Shown: positions 4,273 to 51,165 of the stretch, in pieces
How positions within the stretch are numbered: the stretch's first letter is position 1
Layout of the letters: every line of letters begins with the position of its first letter
Assembly: GCF_008629685.1 (NCBI RefSeq)
Contig: NZ_VWSF01000014.1
Coordinates: 62,001 to 126,000, forward strand
DNA length: 64,000 nucleotides
Direction: 5' to 3'
Origin: Adhaeribacter rhizoryzae
Lineage (GTDB): Bacteria; Bacteroidota; Bacteroidia; Cytophagales; Hymenobacteraceae
The notes under the pieces: model-generated
The model's input: the letters and a program-made list of their open reading frames with translations, nothing else
Told to the model about the DNA's origin: nothing
Databases searched by the model: none
Program-made: the position numbers and the translations under genes

Positions 4273-6783
4273 TTAGATGACAGGCACTTTTTGTCCGCGC
4301 TCGGGCCGGAAATTAATGGATGGGTCTGGTTCGGGGGTATTGACAAAGTGCTGGAAACGCTTGCGTAACTCGGGGTTATTTACCACCTCTTTCCACTCGC
4401 AGGCGTAAGTATCCACCATAAATTCCATTTCGCGTTCCAGGTCGGCACAAATACCCAATGAGTCTTCGATGATTACCTGCCGCAAATAGTCGATGCCACC
4501 TTCCATTTTATTCAGCCAGGTAGCGGTGCGGTTTAATGGTTCGGCCGTTTTTATGTAGAACATCAGGAACCGGTCTAAGTAACGGAGGCAGGTTTCGGTG
4601 TCGAGGTCGGTGGCGAAAAGTTGCGCGTGCTGGGGTTTGGCGCCGCCGTTGCCGCAGATGTACAGGTTCCAGCCTTTTTCGGTGGCAATAATACCAAAGT
4701 CTTTTGATTGCGCTTCGGCACATTCCCGTACGCAACCCGATACCCCGCCTTTTAATTTATGCGGCGACCGCAGACCCCGGTAACGCTCTTCTATCTGGAT
4801 GGCAAAGCCTACCGAATCGTGCAGACCGTAACGGCACCAGGTAGAACCTACGCAGCTTTTCACCGTGCGCAGGCTTTTGCCGTAGGCGTGGCCGCTCTCG
4901 AAACCGGCGTTTACCAGTTCTTCCCAGATATCAGGCAACTGGTCTACCCGGGCACCAAACATATCGATGCGCTGGCCACCGGTTATTTTGGTATACAGGC
5001 CGTATTTAGCCGCTACTTGTCCGATTACAATCAGTTTTTCAGGAGTTATTTCGCCGCCGGCAATCCGGGGAACGACTGAGTAGGTTCCGCCTTTCTGGAT
5101 ATTGGCTAAGTAACGGTCGTTGGTGTCCTGGATGGTGGCTTGTTTTAAGATGAGTTCGTTCCAGGTGCTGGCCAAAATGGAAGCTACGGCTGGTTTACAA
5201 ACTTCGCAGCCATCGCCTTTGCCGTGGTGGCTAATTAGCTCGTCGAAGGTGCGGATATTGTTTACTTTTACAATATCCAGGATTTCGTGGCGGGAATACT
5301 GGAAGTGCTCGCACAAAACTTGTTTTACTTCCTGACCCATTTCTTTCAGGGTGGCATTGAGTAAATCGCCGAGCATGGGTACACAGCCGCCGCAACTGGT
5401 GCCGGCCTTGGTACATTTTTTAATTGAGGCTACATCGCACAGTTTTTCATCTTTAATAGAATTGCAGATAGTGCCCTTGCTTACGCCTTCGCAGGAGCAA
5501 ATAGTAGCTTCTTCGGGTAAACTCAATACCCCGGCTCCGGCAGATTCTGAGCTACCACCCCGGCTACCCAGGATTAAATCTTCGGCATCTGGTGGCACGA
5601 TTATCCGGTTTTGCACCGTTTGCAGCAGCATGTTGTAGTTAGCCGCTTCGCCTACTAAAATACCACCCAGTAAATATTTTCCGTCTTCCGAAATATTAAC
5701 GCGCTTATAAATACCTTTAATCCGGTCTTCGAATACAATGGTGCGGGCATTAGGCTCCGAGATAAACGGATCGCCGAAGCTGGCAACGTCTACGCCTATT
5801 AATTTCAGCTTGGTAGACATATCAAAACCTTTGAAGGTTTTTTCGCCGCCTACCAGGTTGGTTACAACTGTTTCGGCCATATCGTAGCCGGGTGCTACCA
5901 AGCCGTAAATCATGCCGCCGTGCAAAGCGCTTTCGCCAATAGCAAATATATCGGGGTCGGAAGTTTGTAAAGCATCGTTTACCAGGATACCACCCCGCGG
6001 CCCCACCGATAAACCGGCTTTTACGGCTAACTCATCGCGCGGCTTAATACCCGCCGAAACAATCAGCATATCAACATTGAGTTCGCTGCCGTCCGCAAAA
6101 GTCATTTTACGTACGCCGGGGTCACCCAGAATAGCAGTAGTACTTTTGTTTAAATGAATGCTGATGCCCAGGCTCTCCAGTTTTTTCTTCAGCGTTTCGG
6201 AACCCGCTTCATCTAACTGCCGCGGCATTAACCGGGAAGCAAATTCAATGACGTGGGTAGTCAGTCCCATATCCATAGCCGCCTTAGCCGCTTCCAGGCC
6301 CAGTAAACCGCCGCCAATTACCGCCGCTGTTCTGGCCTTAGGCGCATAGGCGAGCATGGCATCCAGGTCTTCGATGGTGCGGTATACAAATACACCTTCT
6401 TTTTCTACCCCATTTATCGGCGGTACAAAAGCGCTGGAACCAGTAGCCAGAATTAATTTATCGTAGCTAACTTCTAATCCTTTATGCGTTGTGATTATTT
6501 TGCTGGCAGCATTAATGCCGGTAACCAGCTCGCCTAAATGCAGATTAATATTGTGCTCTTCGTACCACGAAACGGGAGCCATGGTTAATTCTTCGGCGGT
6601 GGTACCGGAAAAATAAGCACTCAGGTGTACCCGGTCGTAAGCTGGCCGAGGCTCTTCTCCGAAAACAGTTATCTGATAGGCGCCGGGCTGGGCTTTTGCT
6701 ACTAGCTTTTCGCAAAACTTATAGCCGACCATGCCATTGCCTATTACTACTATACGCTGCGGATGTGCTGGAGAACTGCTCAT
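4273..6783 (-). CDS. nirB: Assimilatory nitrite reductase [NAD(P)H], large subunit NirB
   Basis: An 836-residue siroheme nitrite reductase of normal family length, reducing nitrite to ammonium. Domains in order: an FAD/NAD(P)H reductase module with VVIGNGMVG near residue 12 and the second dinucleotide fold AVIGGGLLGLEAA near 150; a BFD-like [2Fe-2S] domain with ICSCEGVSKGTIC near 428 and TSCGGC near 463; then the sulfite/nitrite reductase half. The siroheme/[4Fe-4S] cysteines are SCVGSTWC near 643 and GCVREC near 683. It is the first gene of the operon that continues with nirD, narK and the nitrate reductase. Its 5' leader contains the conserved hairpin at 6811-6861 and its upstream region contains the operator block at 6992-7073, both shared with the porin/NrtA operon. 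The start at 6783 gives a short polar N-terminus before the FAD motif. Confidence 0.95.
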   Translation of the reverse strand: MSSSPAHPQRIVVIGNGMVGYKFCEKLVAKAQPGAYQITVFGEEPRPAYDRVHLSAYFSGTTAEELTMAPVSWYEEHNINLHLGELVTGINAASKIITTHKGLEVSYDKLILATGSSAFVPPINGVEKEGVFVYRTIEDLDAMLAYAPKARTAAVIGGGLLGLEAAKAAMDMGLTTHVIEFASRLMPRQLDEAGSETLKKKLESLGISIHLNKSTTAILGDPGVRKMTFADGSELNVDMLIVSAGIKPRDELAVKAGLSVGPRGGILVNDALQTSDPDIFAIGESALHGGMIYGLVAPGYDMAETVVTNLVGGEKTFKGFDMSTKLKLIGVDVASFGDPFISEPNARTIVFEDRIKGIYKRVNISEDGKYLLGGILVGEAANYNMLLQTVQNRIIVPPDAEDLILGSRGGSSESAGAGVLSLPEEATICSCEGVSKGTICNSIKDEKLCDVASIKKCTKAGTSCGGCVPMLGDLLNATLKEMGQEVKQVLCEHFQYSRHEILDIVKVNNIRTFDELISHHGKGDGCEVCKPAVASILASTWNELILKQATIQDTNDRYLANIQKGGTYSVVPRIAGGEITPEKLIVIGQVAAKYGLYTKITGGQRIDMFGARVDQLPDIWEELVNAGFESGHAYGKSLRTVKSCVGSTWCRYGLHDSVGFAIQIEERYRGLRSPHKLKGGVSGCVRECAEAQSKDFGIIATEKGWNLYICGNGGAKPQHAQLFATDLDTETCLRYLDRFLMFYIKTAEPLNRTATWLNKMEGGIDYLRQVIIEDSLGICADLEREMEFMVDTYACEWKEVVNNPELRKRFQHFVNTPEPDPSINFRPERGQKVPVI

Positions 6784-6810
6784 AGGTTTTAAGTCTTAAA
6801 AAATAATTAT

Positions 6811-6861
6811 AAAATGAACCTTTAATTATTGCCTTAACAGGAGTTGCCGCTCCTGCTAAGG
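6811..6861 (-). promoter_or_regulatory. Structured leader element, copy 1 (upstream of nirB)
   Basis: On the plus strand a 23-base conserved block (core AACCTTTAATTATTGCC, 6811-6833) is followed by an inverted repeat CCTTAACAGGAG / CTCCTGCTAAGG (6832-6861) enclosing the hexaloop TTGCCG; one A-C mismatch interrupts the stem. Read in the nirB direction the loop is CGGCAA and the hairpin precedes the block, ending 27 bases before the nirB start. The second copy (13356-13404) has the same loop and the same flanking block but a different paired stem, so pairing rather than stem sequence is conserved. I infer a leader RNA element; a DNA-level protein site is the alternative. Confidence 0.7.
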
Positions 6862-6991: not shown

Positions 6992-7073
6992 TTGAGTAAA
7001 AATACTCAAATCATCTATACATGGTTATTTTTATAACTACTTTTTTATAAAATTTATGTTTTTCTATAAAACC
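6992..7073. promoter_or_regulatory. Shared operator block, copy 1 (nirB operon)
   Basis: Two inverted repeats with fixed spacing. TTGAGTA-AAAA-TACTCAA (6992-7009) is a perfect 7-4-7 palindrome. TGTTTT-TCTAT-AAAACC (7057-7073) is a near-perfect 6-5-6 inverted repeat. The whole 82-bp block aligns without gaps to 13535-13616 upstream of the porin operon, including ATTTATGTTTT and TTTTAACC just outside. The likely ligand of the first palindrome is the NarL-like regulator encoded at 15279-15929, by location and site symmetry only. Confidence 0.65.
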
Positions 7074-9496: not shown

Positions 9497-9555
9497 CTGT
9501 CATTCAGGAGGAAACTATTTGGCCACCTGCAACATAGTTTCCTCCTGAATGACAG
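9497..9555. repeat. Palindromic repeat family B, copy 1
   Basis: Perfect 22-bp inverted repeat starting CTGTCATTCAGGAGGAAAC, with a 15-base loop. The same arms occur at 17918-18059 and 51109-51165. It sits between the nrtB and nrtD genes and would form a strong hairpin in their transcript. Confidence 0.85.
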
Positions 9556-11958: not shown

Positions 11959-13323
11959 TTATTTAGAAAGGAAAGTTGGCTTGATGTTAATCATCAGGTA
12001 AGCCCAATCGGCCTGCAAATCTGGATTAGAAACGTTCTTTACCGCCGAAGATGCCAGCGTAGAAGTAGCAAAGAAGTGAGAATAGCCGGCTTCCAGATTT
12101 ATCATTTTGGTTAAGCCGTAGTTTACCACCAAATCGAGTTCGGTACCAAAGTTACGATCCAGGCTTACGCGGTCGTTGTTTACAACGTTATTAGAAGCCA
12201 CAAACTGGTGCGCATCCAGGTTCATAACCAAGTTATCTTTTAGTTTATAGCGCGATTTGAGGTAATAATTAATTAAGCCGTTTTTGCCAAAGCCATCGGC
12301 TACGTAAAAGTAATCCATGTTACCCCAGAACTTATGCGGCGTACCATAAAGCGGATCGAACTGCCGGTTGGTAGCATTAGGCGTAACGCGGTTATTGCCG
12401 GAAGTATAATCAATACCGGGCCCAACGCTCAGTTGCGGCGAAACTGCATACATGGCCGCCGCTGACACCAGGTGCGAACGCAGTTTGCCGCCATTTTTAT
12501 CTTTGCCGCCTTGCAGGTAAGCGCTGCCGGTAAAGCTAATTTTGGGCGAAAGGTTGGTGGCCACATAAAAACCGGAAGTTACCCGACTCCAGGTGCCTTT
12601 ATCCAGCACCCGCACGGTGCTATCCATATGGTATTTATTAAAGTCATCTTTCAGAATCAGAAAAGAGGCATTGCCTTTACCAAATTTACGACCCAGGTAC
12701 AGAAACTGCAATGATTTATACAAAGTACCTATGCCATTGGTGCCGGCGGTGTAGCCGGTCGGGATACCATTATAGATAGTACTGGCCTTCCGTTCCTGGT
12801 TTTGATTATAAGCTACACCCAAATGCCCCATCCAACCCTTGTGTTCCAGTTTTAGCAAAGCCAAATCGTGGCGCCGACCTTGCTGCAGCCAGTCCAGGTT
12901 ACCCAACAGGCGGGAGTCATCGTAAACCAGTTCCTGCCGACCTATTTTTAGAGAGAGATTTTCAATGGCGGCGGTAGTATCCAATAGCATAATTTCGCCC
13001 CAGGCTTCGTGCACGAGTAAACCATCATTAGCATCAGGGGTAATGCGGTTAATGGTAGAGGCATCTTGTCCCCAAATCCGTACATCCTGAATAGCGGTAA
13101 AAAGTTTAAAGCGGTAACCGGTGTAACCTACATTTAAGCGGGTGCGCTGGGAGGTAAAAAAAGCGGGTGCCGCCTCTTTGGTGGTTAGGGTACCCTGCCC
13201 GTTGCGCAGCTCTGAGCGGGTGCGTACCTGCCCCGAAACGGTAAACTGCGCCAAGGCAAAATTACTACTCAACAGCCCCAGCAATAGCGCGCCGAAAAGT
13301 TGATTCCGTAACTTTTTTTTCAT
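11959..13323 (-). CDS. Outer-membrane porin of the alginate_exp-like family, first gene of the nitrate ABC operon
   Basis: A 454-residue beta-barrel with a clear signal peptide (cleavage after NFALA near residue 25) and a terminal aromatic beta-strand. Features such as VRTRSELRNGQG and KIGRQELVYDDSRLLGNLDW resemble alginate-export family barrels, which serve as general or specific porins. It heads the operon porin-nrtA-nrtB-nrtD, so I infer a channel for nitrate passage through the outer membrane. Its leader contains the structured element at 13356-13404, and the operator block at 13535-13616 lies between it and the divergent sensor kinase gene. Substrate specificity is inference from context. 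Confidence 0.82.
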   Translation of the reverse strand: MKKKLRNQLFGALLLGLLSSNFALAQFTVSGQVRTRSELRNGQGTLTTKEAAPAFFTSQRTRLNVGYTGYRFKLFTAIQDVRIWGQDASTINRITPDANDGLLVHEAWGEIMLLDTTAAIENLSLKIGRQELVYDDSRLLGNLDWLQQGRRHDLALLKLEHKGWMGHLGVAYNQNQERKASTIYNGIPTGYTAGTNGIGTLYKSLQFLYLGRKFGKGNASFLILKDDFNKYHMDSTVRVLDKGTWSRVTSGFYVATNLSPKISFTGSAYLQGGKDKNGGKLRSHLVSAAAMYAVSPQLSVGPGIDYTSGNNRVTPNATNRQFDPLYGTPHKFWGNMDYFYVADGFGKNGLINYYLKSRYKLKDNLVMNLDAHQFVASNNVVNNDRVSLDRNFGTELDLVVNYGLTKMINLEAGYSHFFATSTLASSAVKNVSNPDLQADWAYLMINIKPTFLSK

Positions 13324-13355
13324 AAGTTTGAATAGTTTTAAGTTAGAAATAATTT

Positions 13356-13404
13356 AAAATGAACCTTTAATTATTGCCCTGGAAGAGTTGCCGCTCTTCC
13401 AGGG
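13356..13404 (-). promoter_or_regulatory. Structured leader element, copy 2 (upstream of porin operon)
   Basis: The plus strand holds the same 23-base block (core AACCTTTAATTATTGCC, 13356-13378), then a perfect 11-bp stem CCCTGGAAGAG / CTCTTCCAGGG (13377-13404) with hexaloop TTGCCG. In the porin direction the loop is CGGCAA and the element ends 32 bases before the start codon. Compared with copy 1 the stem sequence is mostly different but still pairs. A T6 run on the plus-strand side could also make it a terminator for leftward-antisense transcription; copy 1 lacks that run. Confidence 0.7.
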
Positions 13405-13534
13405 TTTTTTATTGCTGTTTTTTAAGCTTCTGAAAAATTTTACTTATTCCTCACTTACCTATCTCTTTATTAAGCCACTCTCTTTATTAATATTTTATTA
13501 ACTCAGGTATTTACTTAATATTTTAACCGTAATT

Positions 13535-13616
13535 TTGAGTAATTATACTTAATACATCAATATACACCTAAATATTTAACCATTATTTTATAATATTTAT
13601 GTTTTCTTGTAAAACA
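13535..13616. promoter_or_regulatory. Shared operator block, copy 2 (porin operon / narX divergent region)
   Basis: TTGAGTA-ATTA-TACTTAA (13535-13552) and TGTTTT-CTTGT-AAAACA (13600-13616, perfect 6-5-6 inverted repeat) lie with exactly the spacing seen at 6992-7073. The block lies between the divergent porin and histidine-kinase genes and may serve both. A weaker TACTTAA half-site is at 13512-13518. Confidence 0.65.
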
Positions 13617-13807: not shown

Positions 13808-15286
13808 ATGAATTTGTCCGCTGACCCACAGATTGCCCGTAAAATTACCCGCCTGTATTTGCTGGCTCTCACGGCAGTGGCATTACTATCTATAGGTGGG
13901 CAATATTTGGTGCAGCGTTCGCTGGAAAGTCAATCCAATGACTCGCGGGTGGTAAATATTGCGGGCCGGCAGCGCATGCTCAGCCAGAAAATAACCAAAA
14001 CGGTTTTGTTGCTGCAGGAGCAACCCGATAGCTTGCTACTAGCTACTTACCTGGCTGATTTGGATGAAGCGCTGGATTTGTGGCAGAAAAGCCATAAAGG
14101 ATTGCAAAGCGGTTACCTGGCTTATATTCAAACGCCGGTAAACAACAGCGATTCTACCCGGGCTATGTTTGCGGCCATTAATCCGCTTTTTGGAGCTATC
14201 TATAATAATGCAAAGTTTGTAAGTAAATATTTTCATCAGCACGCAACCAATATTCCAGTTCCGGCGGACATCCGAAATAACATCCGGATAATTCTTGCCA
14301 ACGAGCGGGCTTACCTTGGGGGCATGAACCAGATTGTTTTTCAGTACGATGCCGAAGCCAAACGGCGGGTAAACGCTTCGCAGCAAATTGAGCTTATACT
14401 ATTATTATGTACGCTGATTATTCTGGCCCTGGAAGGTTTGTTTATTTTCCGGCCGGCCGTGCGGCAAATTCAACGTACCATTGGGTTGCTCATCGATTCG
14501 GAACAACGCACCCACCGGGTAAACGAAGAATTGGTAGCGGTAAATAAATCGCTGGAAGAAACCCGCGAAGCCTTACTGCGAGCCACCGACGAAAAATACC
14601 GGCAGCAAATAAACGAGCAGAAAATGCGGTCGGCGTACTTAATAGAAGGCCAGGAAGAAGAGCGCAAACGGGTAGCCTTAGAAATTCACGACGGGCTGGG
14701 CCAGATGCTAACGGCCCTGAAATTTGGCATTGAGAAAATTGGCGATTCGGTAAACACTACCGAAACCGCCCAACAAAACCTGGATGAACTCCGCAGCCTC
14801 GTGAGCCAAACTATTACAGAAGCCCGCACCATTTCGTTTAATTTAATGCCGGCTGTACTAAACGATTTTGGTATTTCTTCGGCTTTAAAATTACTAACTA
14901 CGCAGGTGGCCTCCAACGCTGCGGTTAACGTAACTTTTAATACCAACTGGAACGGCAAAAGGCTGGCCCGCAACCTCGAAATCGGCTTGTACCGGGTAAG
15001 TCAGGAAGCCCTCAACAACGCCGTAAAATACGCTGAAGCTACTGATATTACCGTCGAGCTCTGGCACAAAAAGAAATATATTCACCTGACCATCCTGGAT
15101 AATGGGCGCGGCTTTAGTCCGCAGAAATTATCTACCCGATCCCGTAAATCCGGTCCCTCGCACGGCATCAGCAACATGAAAGAGCGCGTTTACATTATAA
15201 ACGGCGACATTAACATAAATTCCAAGCCCGGACAGGGCACCCAGATACACGTAAAAGTACCTTTACTCCTAACCGACCATGCATAA
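13808..15286 (+). CDS. narX: NarX-like sensor histidine kinase with PilJ-type nitrate-sensing domain
   Basis: A 492-residue membrane kinase likely sensing nitrate or nitrite outside the cytoplasm. The N-terminal helix (about residues 15-33) is followed by NIAGRQRMLSQKITK near residue 50, the P-box-like signature of PilJ/NarX sensor domains, then a long helical periplasmic region and a second membrane helix near 197-216. After a coiled linker come the HisKA_3 phosphoacceptor helix LEIHDGLGQMLTALKFG (His near 294) and a HATPase domain with NNAVKYAEA near 401, DNGRGF near 435 and HGISNMKERV near 455. The gene overlaps the response regulator by 8 bases. Position next to the nitrate operons and the sensor type support nitrate as signal; the ligand is inference. 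Confidence 0.9.
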   Translation: MNLSADPQIARKITRLYLLALTAVALLSIGGQYLVQRSLESQSNDSRVVNIAGRQRMLSQKITKTVLLLQEQPDSLLLATYLADLDEALDLWQKSHKGLQSGYLAYIQTPVNNSDSTRAMFAAINPLFGAIYNNAKFVSKYFHQHATNIPVPADIRNNIRIILANERAYLGGMNQIVFQYDAEAKRRVNASQQIELILLLCTLIILALEGLFIFRPAVRQIQRTIGLLIDSEQRTHRVNEELVAVNKSLEETREALLRATDEKYRQQINEQKMRSAYLIEGQEEERKRVALEIHDGLGQMLTALKFGIEKIGDSVNTTETAQQNLDELRSLVSQTITEARTISFNLMPAVLNDFGISSALKLLTTQVASNAAVNVTFNTNWNGKRLARNLEIGLYRVSQEALNNAVKYAEATDITVELWHKKKYIHLTILDNGRGFSPQKLSTRSRKSGPSHGISNMKERVYIINGDININSKPGQGTQIHVKVPLLLTDHA

Positions 15287-15929
15287 AATAAAAGTAATAT
15301 TAGCCGACGACCACACCATAGTGCGCAACGGCATTCGGTCTTTACTCGAAGGCCTTACGGATATAGAAATTGTAGGCGAAGCCCAAAACGGTGCCGAAGC
15401 CCTCACCAAAGTAAAAGAATTAACGCCCGATGTACTGATGATAGACATTGCCATGCCGGTTATGAATGGTCTGGAAGCCACCGCCCAGCTCAGCAAACTG
15501 CATAAAAGCACCAAATGCCTGATGCTCTCGATGCACAACAACGAAGATTATATTCTGAAATCGGTAGAGGCCGGGGCTTACGGCTATTTATTAAAAGATA
15601 CGACCCGCGACGAAATGCTGCGCGCCATCCGGACCGTGGCCAGCGGCGAGAAATATTACAGCCCGTCGGTATCTAATATTATTATCTCTTCTTACCTGCA
15701 AAAAGTAAAATCACCCGAAACAGCGCTGCCGCCTAAAAAGAAGCTGAGTAAACAGGAAAAAGCTATTCTGAAATTTATTGTAGAAGGCTCGAACAGCCGC
15801 GAAATTGCCGAAAAACTAAATCTCAGCGTCCGCACCATCGATAACCACCGGGCCAGTATGATGAAACGCCTGGGTGTAAAAAATGCTGTAGAGTTAGTGC
15901 GGAAGGCTTTAGAAGAAAAATTAGTTTAG
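15279..15929 (+). CDS. narL: NarL-like response regulator, LuxR-type DNA-binding
   Basis: A 216-residue regulator. The receiver domain has the acidic pair ADDH near residue 9, phosphoacceptor Asp in VLMIDIAMP near residue 55, Ser in LMLSMH near 83 and Lys in LLKDTTRDE near 106. A LuxR/FixJ helix-turn-helix occupies about residues 148-212 (SKQEKAILKFIVEG, then SREIAEKLNLSVRTIDNHR). The ATG lies inside the end of the kinase gene, which indicates translational coupling and a cognate pair. It is the obvious candidate to bind the TGAGTA-N4-TACTCA palindromes upstream of both nitrate operons. Confidence 0.92.
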   Translation: MHKIKVILADDHTIVRNGIRSLLEGLTDIEIVGEAQNGAEALTKVKELTPDVLMIDIAMPVMNGLEATAQLSKLHKSTKCLMLSMHNNEDYILKSVEAGAYGYLLKDTTRDEMLRAIRTVASGEKYYSPSVSNIIISSYLQKVKSPETALPPKKKLSKQEKAILKFIVEGSNSREIAEKLNLSVRTIDNHRASMMKRLGVKNAVELVRKALEEKLV

Positions 15930-17917: not shown

Positions 17918-18059
17918 TGTCATTCAGGAGGAACCTATGTAGCTGATTCAAGGACCGTTGCTATGATCAAATTAAATTGAATATTAAATAAATCTAATCT
18001 CAATTTTGCCAATAGCTACCGCTTCTGAATCTTCTAAAAAGTTTCCTCCTGAATGACAG
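17918..18059. repeat. Palindromic repeat family B, copy 2 (with long internal segment)
   Basis: Left arm TGTCATTCAGGAGGAACC and right arm GTTTCCTCCTGAATGACA are the arms of family B, separated here by about 100 bp instead of 11-15. The centre is not related to the loops of the other copies. Confidence 0.75.
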
Positions 18060-51108: not shown

Positions 51109-51165
51109 TGTCATTCAGGAGGAAACTATTTGGCTGCCTGCTAAATAGTTTCCTCCTGAATGACA
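51109..51165. repeat. Palindromic repeat family B, copy 3
   Basis: Perfect 23-bp inverted repeat (TGTCATTCAGGAGGAAACTA... and its complement) with an 11-base loop TGGCTGCCTGC-like. Arms are identical to those of copy 1 at 9497-9555. Confidence 0.85.

Follow-up and report, generated by a model that had tools for sequence, protein, structure and literature searches.

The window analysed here is a stretch of 64,000 nt from Adhaeribacter rhizoryzae that carries two nitrate operons on its minus strand, each preceded by a hairpin. The first operon, nirB-nirD-narK, lies downstream of hairpin copy 1 and opens with the gene for the nitrite reductase large subunit (nirB, 4273–6783, minus strand), while the second, porin-nrtA-nrtB-nrtCD-pfkB, lies downstream of copy 2 and opens with an outer membrane porin gene (Alginate_exp, PF13372; 11959–13323, minus strand); both genes were assigned by domain match. 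Divergent to the porin operon is a kinase/regulator pair (13808–15929), comprising a NarX-like sensor kinase with a PilJ-type N-terminal domain and HisKA_3 (13808–15286, plus strand) and a NarL-type response regulator with Response_reg and GerE (15279–15929, plus strand), again by domain match. As for the surroundings, A. aerolatus (L015, 6809–9245) has no nrtABC between porin and pfkB, unlike the window; the nirD-porin gap of four other Adhaeribacter (L107–L110) holds an identical, repeat-like GC-rich hairpin, GGCGCGAGCGTCCACGCTCGTGTC; and a dispersed palindromic repeat, TGTCATTCAGGAGGAA...TTCCTCCTGAATGACA, occurs in the window at 9498–9554, 17918–18058 and 51109–51165, in loci L229 and L236 of the same genome, and in locus L217 of A. 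aerolatus.

Regarding transcriptional control, a palindrome lies upstream of both operons: TTGAGTA-N4-TACTTAA at 13535–13552 (one mismatch), 229 nt upstream of the porin, and TTGAGTA-N4-TACTCAA at 6992–7009 (no mismatches), 226 nt upstream of nirB. Among 21 relatives, the palindrome upstream of nirB has 0–2 mismatches in 10 (L010–L013, L015–L017, L019, L025 and L027) and 3–5 in the other 11. It is likely the site of the neighbouring NarL-type regulator and, judged from sequence, this common palindrome would be enough to control the operons jointly and would explain such joint control more simply than a leader RNA.

The preliminary description, which covered the mRNA strand alone, took the two hairpins for a leader RNA common to both operons. 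Both hairpins are present as it described them, copy 1 at 6832–6861 (12 bp, ahead of nirB) and copy 2 at 13377–13404 (11 bp, ahead of the porin), with the identical hexaloop TTGCCG on the plus strand, and the 23-base block GGCAATAATTAAAGGTTCATTTT is indeed the same in both (6811–6833 and 13356–13378). This block has just two sites in the whole 6.5-Mb genome with up to three mismatches allowed, which rules out a dispersed repeat; the doubled GGCAA is present in the window copies and is not kept as such in relatives. The folding z-score is −4.2 for the copy-2 leader and −2.8 for the copy-1 leader. As regards known RNA families, Rfam gives only a tRNA in the window at gathering score, and over 13200–13500 the best E-value belongs to NsiR1, whose 24.6 bits fall short of its gathering score of 39. 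On the plus strand, a T-run (13405–13410) directly follows the porin hairpin, and no such run directly follows the hairpin of the nirB copy; a generic terminator scan finds one of 13 pairs at 13376–13405 (plus strand) and none at the nirB copy, terminator-like sites across the region being no commoner than in shuffles (10 vs 10.3).

The porin copy forms part of a unit that looks like a small RNA gene when read on the plus strand, opposite the porin, and it is on this strand that a small RNA of ~76 nt, antisense to the porin 5′ leader, is predicted (13335–13410), from its promoter, stem-loops and U-run and from the conservation of the unit at the porins of relatives. The putative promoter reads TTG-N20-TAnnTTTG, with a G at the predicted +1: the −7 element TAAGTTTG (13323–13330) overlaps the porin start codon, and the −33 element TTG (13300–13302) stands 20 nt from it, within porin codons, a position that counts against the small RNA reading. 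A 5′ stem-loop, SL1 (13335–13360), begins at the predicted +1; it is followed by the linker GAACCTTTAATTATTG (13361–13376), open and complementary to the nirB leader according to folding and pairing predictions, by the terminator hairpin (13377–13404), which is identified by covariation, T-run and terminator scan, and by the U-run (13405–13410). The predicted length is 76 nt in the window and 63–78 nt in relatives, with 3′ ends cut by hand; the 58 nt obtained for L142 reflects a misplaced start, the same locus giving 65 nt as L191.

The −7 consensus of Bacteroidota is given as TAnnTTTG at −12 to −5 in the relevant part of PMC9723704, and appears also in PMC7366714, where, in the passage concerned, no −33 motif could be found for Flavobacterium johnsoniae. 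Of 60 porin leaders, 12 have an exact TAnnTTTG lying over the porin start codon, and each of these belongs to the 15 in which the hairpin was called by eye (12/15 vs 0/45); the hairpin calls are our own, and some leaders counted as lacking the hairpin hold other ones (e.g., L099, L127 and L170). The 60 leaders come from 50 of 54 porin places together with L098, L100, L101, L172–L175, L015, L016, L119 and L120; G290, G151, G013 and G340 are not among them, and G335 (L169) was dropped for want of an ATG. L015, L016, L119, L120 and the window were included for having the hairpin, and the p-values leave these five out: among the 55 protein-sampled leaders, the −7 box is found in 7/10 with a hairpin by eye vs 0/45 (p 6e-7) and, when hairpins are called automatically by a procedure that overlooks bulged stems, in 4/6 vs 3/49 (p 0.0014). 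The leaders are related to varying degrees, many rows being near relatives; L124 and L125 represent one genus, and L125 matches L017 from Rhodocytophaga.

In 10 of the 12 leaders with an exact −7 box, a −33 TTG stands at a spacing of 19–20 nt; L142 has it at spacings of 18 and 22, and L175 has none. Among 594 control ORF starts, 12 carry the −7 motif and four of these also the −33 element, all four being the porins under study; likewise, only three of 597 control starts combine the −7 motif with an antisense terminator, and all three are these porins. Five nucleotides past the exact −7 box there is a G in 17/19 leaders, several of them from near-identical species, and when folding starts at the predicted +1, base 1 is paired in 17 of 22 rows (repeats counted), an open linker and the terminator following further on. 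The first base is unpaired in L051, L142/L191, L158 and L192, and the exact −7 box is absent from L128, L149, L158 and L192.

As for distribution, 3 of 150 genomes of the family matched a sequence pattern of the element: the window genome and A. aerolatus (G019) with both copies, and G034 with the porin copy only. In five further Adhaeribacter genomes (L010–L013 and L016) and at the other Bacteroidota loci inspected, the nirB leader showed no such hairpin by eye, an inspection that excluded L008, L009 and L014; the widespread copy is that of the porin, which in A. aquaticus is preceded by a diverged hairpin with the loop CGGCCA. Absence of the element upstream of nitrate genes in related genomes, which the preliminary description regarded as evidence against itself, was thus found for nirB and not for the porin. 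Porin homologues were retrieved by protein search from 53/291 genomes of the order (E ≤ 1e-60) and from 5/395 of the phylum (E ≤ 1e-90); the hairpin is visible in 15/60 of the leaders, with changing stems, and the unit is absent from 45/60. Hairpin-bearing leaders come from six families of the order (f1, f4, f5, f11, f15 and f19) and from one outside it (f24, L175), and a further case, L051, surfaced in the promoter control.

A covariance model of the mRNA strand (R1) matched 6/150 genomes of the family and also the porin of Rhodocytophaga aerolata; it was superseded by an antisense model (R2), which matched 4/41 family, 12/291 order and 2/395 class genomes at E ≤ 0.001, the filters being strict enough to miss weak matches. 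Apart from the nirB copy, seen in the window genome and as a twin in A. aerolatus, every R2 match is antisense to one porin family (ORFs judged by eye; that of G034 is decayed). At E 0.05, L175, L128 and L051 were unmatched by R2, so their place in the family is read from anatomy alone. The leaders L128 and L051 hold a second version of the unit, at the same place and with the T-run kept. Its loop has 7 nt and its 5′ start, TTAGTGTNACAAC, differs; L051 has an exact −7 box. No viral contigs carrying the porin were found.

The claim that the hairpins covary had been based on two paralogous copies; covariation proper comes from more distant relatives only, since both stems of the A. aerolatus orthologues are the same as in the window. 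In alignment A9, a model-fitted set of 20 distinct rows that includes the nirB copy, L111, two mRNA-strand matches and near relatives, 96.8% of the terminator cells are paired, 10 of 11 pairs have changed on both sides, and none of 500 shuffles reaches any of five covariation measures. SL1 is 97.7% paired, but its covariation is weak, with one two-sided pair and 17/500 shuffles reaching the score. The preliminary proposal of a selected RNA structure tied to nitrate genes is supported. As for INDEPENDENCE from the porin, the porin gene that adjoins the unit in G034 is decayed; the window and G034 agree at 75/78 positions of the unit, compared with 162/306 in the upstream flank and 84/151 in the downstream one (53–56%), a contrast which suggests that selection acts on the unit itself. 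It counts against this that G034, an assembly that is 78% complete and in 680 contigs, has an altered −7 box beside the otherwise conserved body of the unit.

The porin hairpin is thus probably, in our judgment, the intrinsic terminator of a small RNA of ~76 nt that is antisense to the porin leader and restrains the porin. We infer that transcription proceeds from the strand opposite the porin, from a promoter that overlaps the first porin codons; the RNA would have its 5′ end 12 nt ahead of the porin start codon, comprise a 5′ hairpin, a short linker left open and the terminator, and stop at the U-run. Being fully complementary to the porin leader, it would most likely repress translation of the porin or destabilise its mRNA, an effect reported of DonS at a susC operon.

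The copy ahead of nirB (6810–6861, minus strand) consists, by homology and pairing, of the hairpin and of a block complementary to the small RNA linker, and is homologous to the whole unit of the porin locus. Its antisense −7 position reads TAGGTTTT, it has neither a −33 TTG nor a U-run (four T past the hairpin on the antisense strand and one on the mRNA strand), and its better fold is the one in the mRNA. The copy is known from two species only, that of the window and A. aerolatus; there the nirB leader is complementary to both the linker and the terminator loop, so the small RNA may act on it in trans. Among 60 ORF starts of the window, the predicted pairing of the small RNA with the nirB leader (−78 kcal/mol) comes second to that with the cis target (−128), and the next best is at −43; the linker alone gives −27.3 with nirB, the best 5% of shuffled linkers reaching −17.2. 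Because this pairing follows from homology, it fits a trans target and a decayed duplicate alike.

There is about an even chance that the nirB copy, taken by itself, is no target but a duplicate without function, derived from the unit at the porin locus and deprived of promoter and U-run. The homology across the whole unit agrees with this, as do the restriction of the copy to two species and the fact that the linker matches nirB in neither A. aquaticus nor Rhodocytophaga, whose clusters contain no trans targets beyond those of shuffled linkers; against it stand 12 uninterrupted mRNA-strand pairs and 23 identical bases that persist despite diverged stems. The two species give no proof of selection, since they are too close (NirB 98% identical). 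Tentatively, and with somewhat less confidence than an even chance would carry, the cis-antisense RNA of the nitrate porin may have recently gained nirB as a trans target in these two Adhaeribacter species, by kissing-loop and linker pairing, and would then tune uptake and nitrite reduction together. A trans regulon might also be reached through the conserved 5′ end of the small RNA, TAACTTAAAAC, which occurs 24 times in its own genome (G000) vs 6 for the reversed control; of 23 sites inspected (loci L223–L245), five lie 1–32 nt ahead of an open-frame ATG (L225, L226, L230, L239 and L240) and the other 18 do not.

The strand was also assessed from pairing. Regarding the terminator, the 8 nt past the hairpin hold 5–8 T on the antisense strand in 16/16 porin copies and 0–4 on the mRNA strand, the latter counted at a fixed offset that is approximate for longer stems. 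Its antisense form pairs better in 11 porin copies, equally in five and worse in two, L126 and L129 (sign test p 0.02). In eight distinct sequences of SL1, 86/88 pairs are standard on the antisense strand vs 66/88 on the porin mRNA strand. It is improbable, at odds we would put low, that the porin hairpin instead acts in cis on the mRNA strand, as a protein-binding or stabilising leader RNA common with nirB. The hairpin is stable in the mRNA too; the antisense form is the more stable in 12/16 porin copies, but the mRNA-strand fold is the better one in L126, L128, L129 and L130, as it is in the nirB copy, and the start of the hairpin at 65–83 nt ahead of the porin start in all 15 listed leaders would suit a leader as well. 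However, the mRNA strand has no U-run and shows non-standard pairs where the opposite strand has G·U, the opposite-strand promoter, +1 G and T-run would be left unexplained, and G034 retains the unit beside a decayed porin. A loop-specific protein site on the mRNA strand was set aside; the porin loop pattern YKGCVR cannot tell the strand, because it is close to its own reverse complement. The T-run, the promoter, the G and fold at +1 and the non-standard mRNA-strand pairs point to the strand opposite the porin, as far as sequence features can indicate it. A leader RNA common to both operons is not supported: at the porin, the features are those of a small RNA gene read from the other strand, and the copy ahead of nirB was found in two close species only. 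It is probable that an antisense small RNA takes the place of most of that reading. That the hairpin merely terminates antisense transcription at the porin 5′ end, with no regulatory small RNA, is very unlikely: the terminator features on the antisense strand agree with it, but a promoter just upstream on the same strand and a 5′ hairpin at +1 speak against it.

The antisense small RNA can be set beside several known systems. NalA, the nirBD leader of Pseudomonas, is a sense-strand antitermination leader; both it and the nirB copy are RNA elements upstream of nirB, NalA being sense-strand and from another phylum. The nasF leader recognised by the ANTAR protein NasR is likewise an RNA hairpin tied to nitrate assimilation and, according to PMC3369936, requires A1/G4 loops, an mRNA-strand terminator and an ANTAR protein, none of which was found here. 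The mRNA-strand loops (CGGCAA, CGGCCA, CTGCCA, TGGCAG and TGGCGG) have no A1/G4, and ANTAR proteins were matched neither in the window genome nor above cut-off in eight genomes of the genus (four of them sub-threshold), 0/14 control genomes being matched too, so that the search may be insensitive; an ANTAR/NasR leader is rejected on this protein search and the loop residues, in agreement with the preliminary description.

Closer likenesses come from Bacteroides. In B. thetaiotaomicron, according to the relevant text of PMC11697453, the FopS small RNAs act close to the start codon of a porin (susC) mRNA and block its translation, a likeness to the RNA predicted here, but they pair imperfectly with several targets, whereas the latter is antisense to its porin. 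DonS belongs to a family of cis-antisense RNAs of 78–128 nt divergent to susC homologues (PMC7366714), and 32 PUL-associated antisense RNAs are given for B. thetaiotaomicron, correlating with the porin operon negatively as well as positively (PMC10994844); because they correlate both ways, the sign of the effect on the nitrate porin could go either way. The DonS and PUL antisense RNAs are, in the parts of PMC7366714, PMC10994844 and PMC11697453 that bear on them, short RNAs encoded divergently and opposite the start of an outer membrane porin gene in Bacteroidota, and many have a sigma-ABfr promoter, as is predicted here. The predicted RNA lies opposite the porin 5′ region (13335–13410, plus strand, vs the porin start at 13323, minus strand), and its 76 nt, with relatives at 63–78 nt and 3′ ends cut by hand, stand next to the 78–128 nt of the DonS family. 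Unlike DonS, it faces an Alginate_exp porin in a nitrate cluster and not a SusC of a polysaccharide locus, and it has a complementary copy in a second operon in two species; the likeness is one of architecture and not of sequence comparison. Searches of open-licence PMC papers showed, by title or abstract, no report of an antisense RNA to a nitrate porin in Bacteroidota. Antisense RNAs at porin starts are known from the sugar-uptake loci of gut Bacteroides, and the predicted nitrate-porin RNA is a variant of the DonS-type architecture rather than a member, with another porin and another pathway. A like-built RNA at a nitrate porin, kept in several families, would extend this arrangement to inorganic nitrogen uptake; the unit provides a comparative anatomy of promoter, SL1, linker and terminator, and its nirB copy may be an example of a cis-antisense RNA in the course of acquiring another target.
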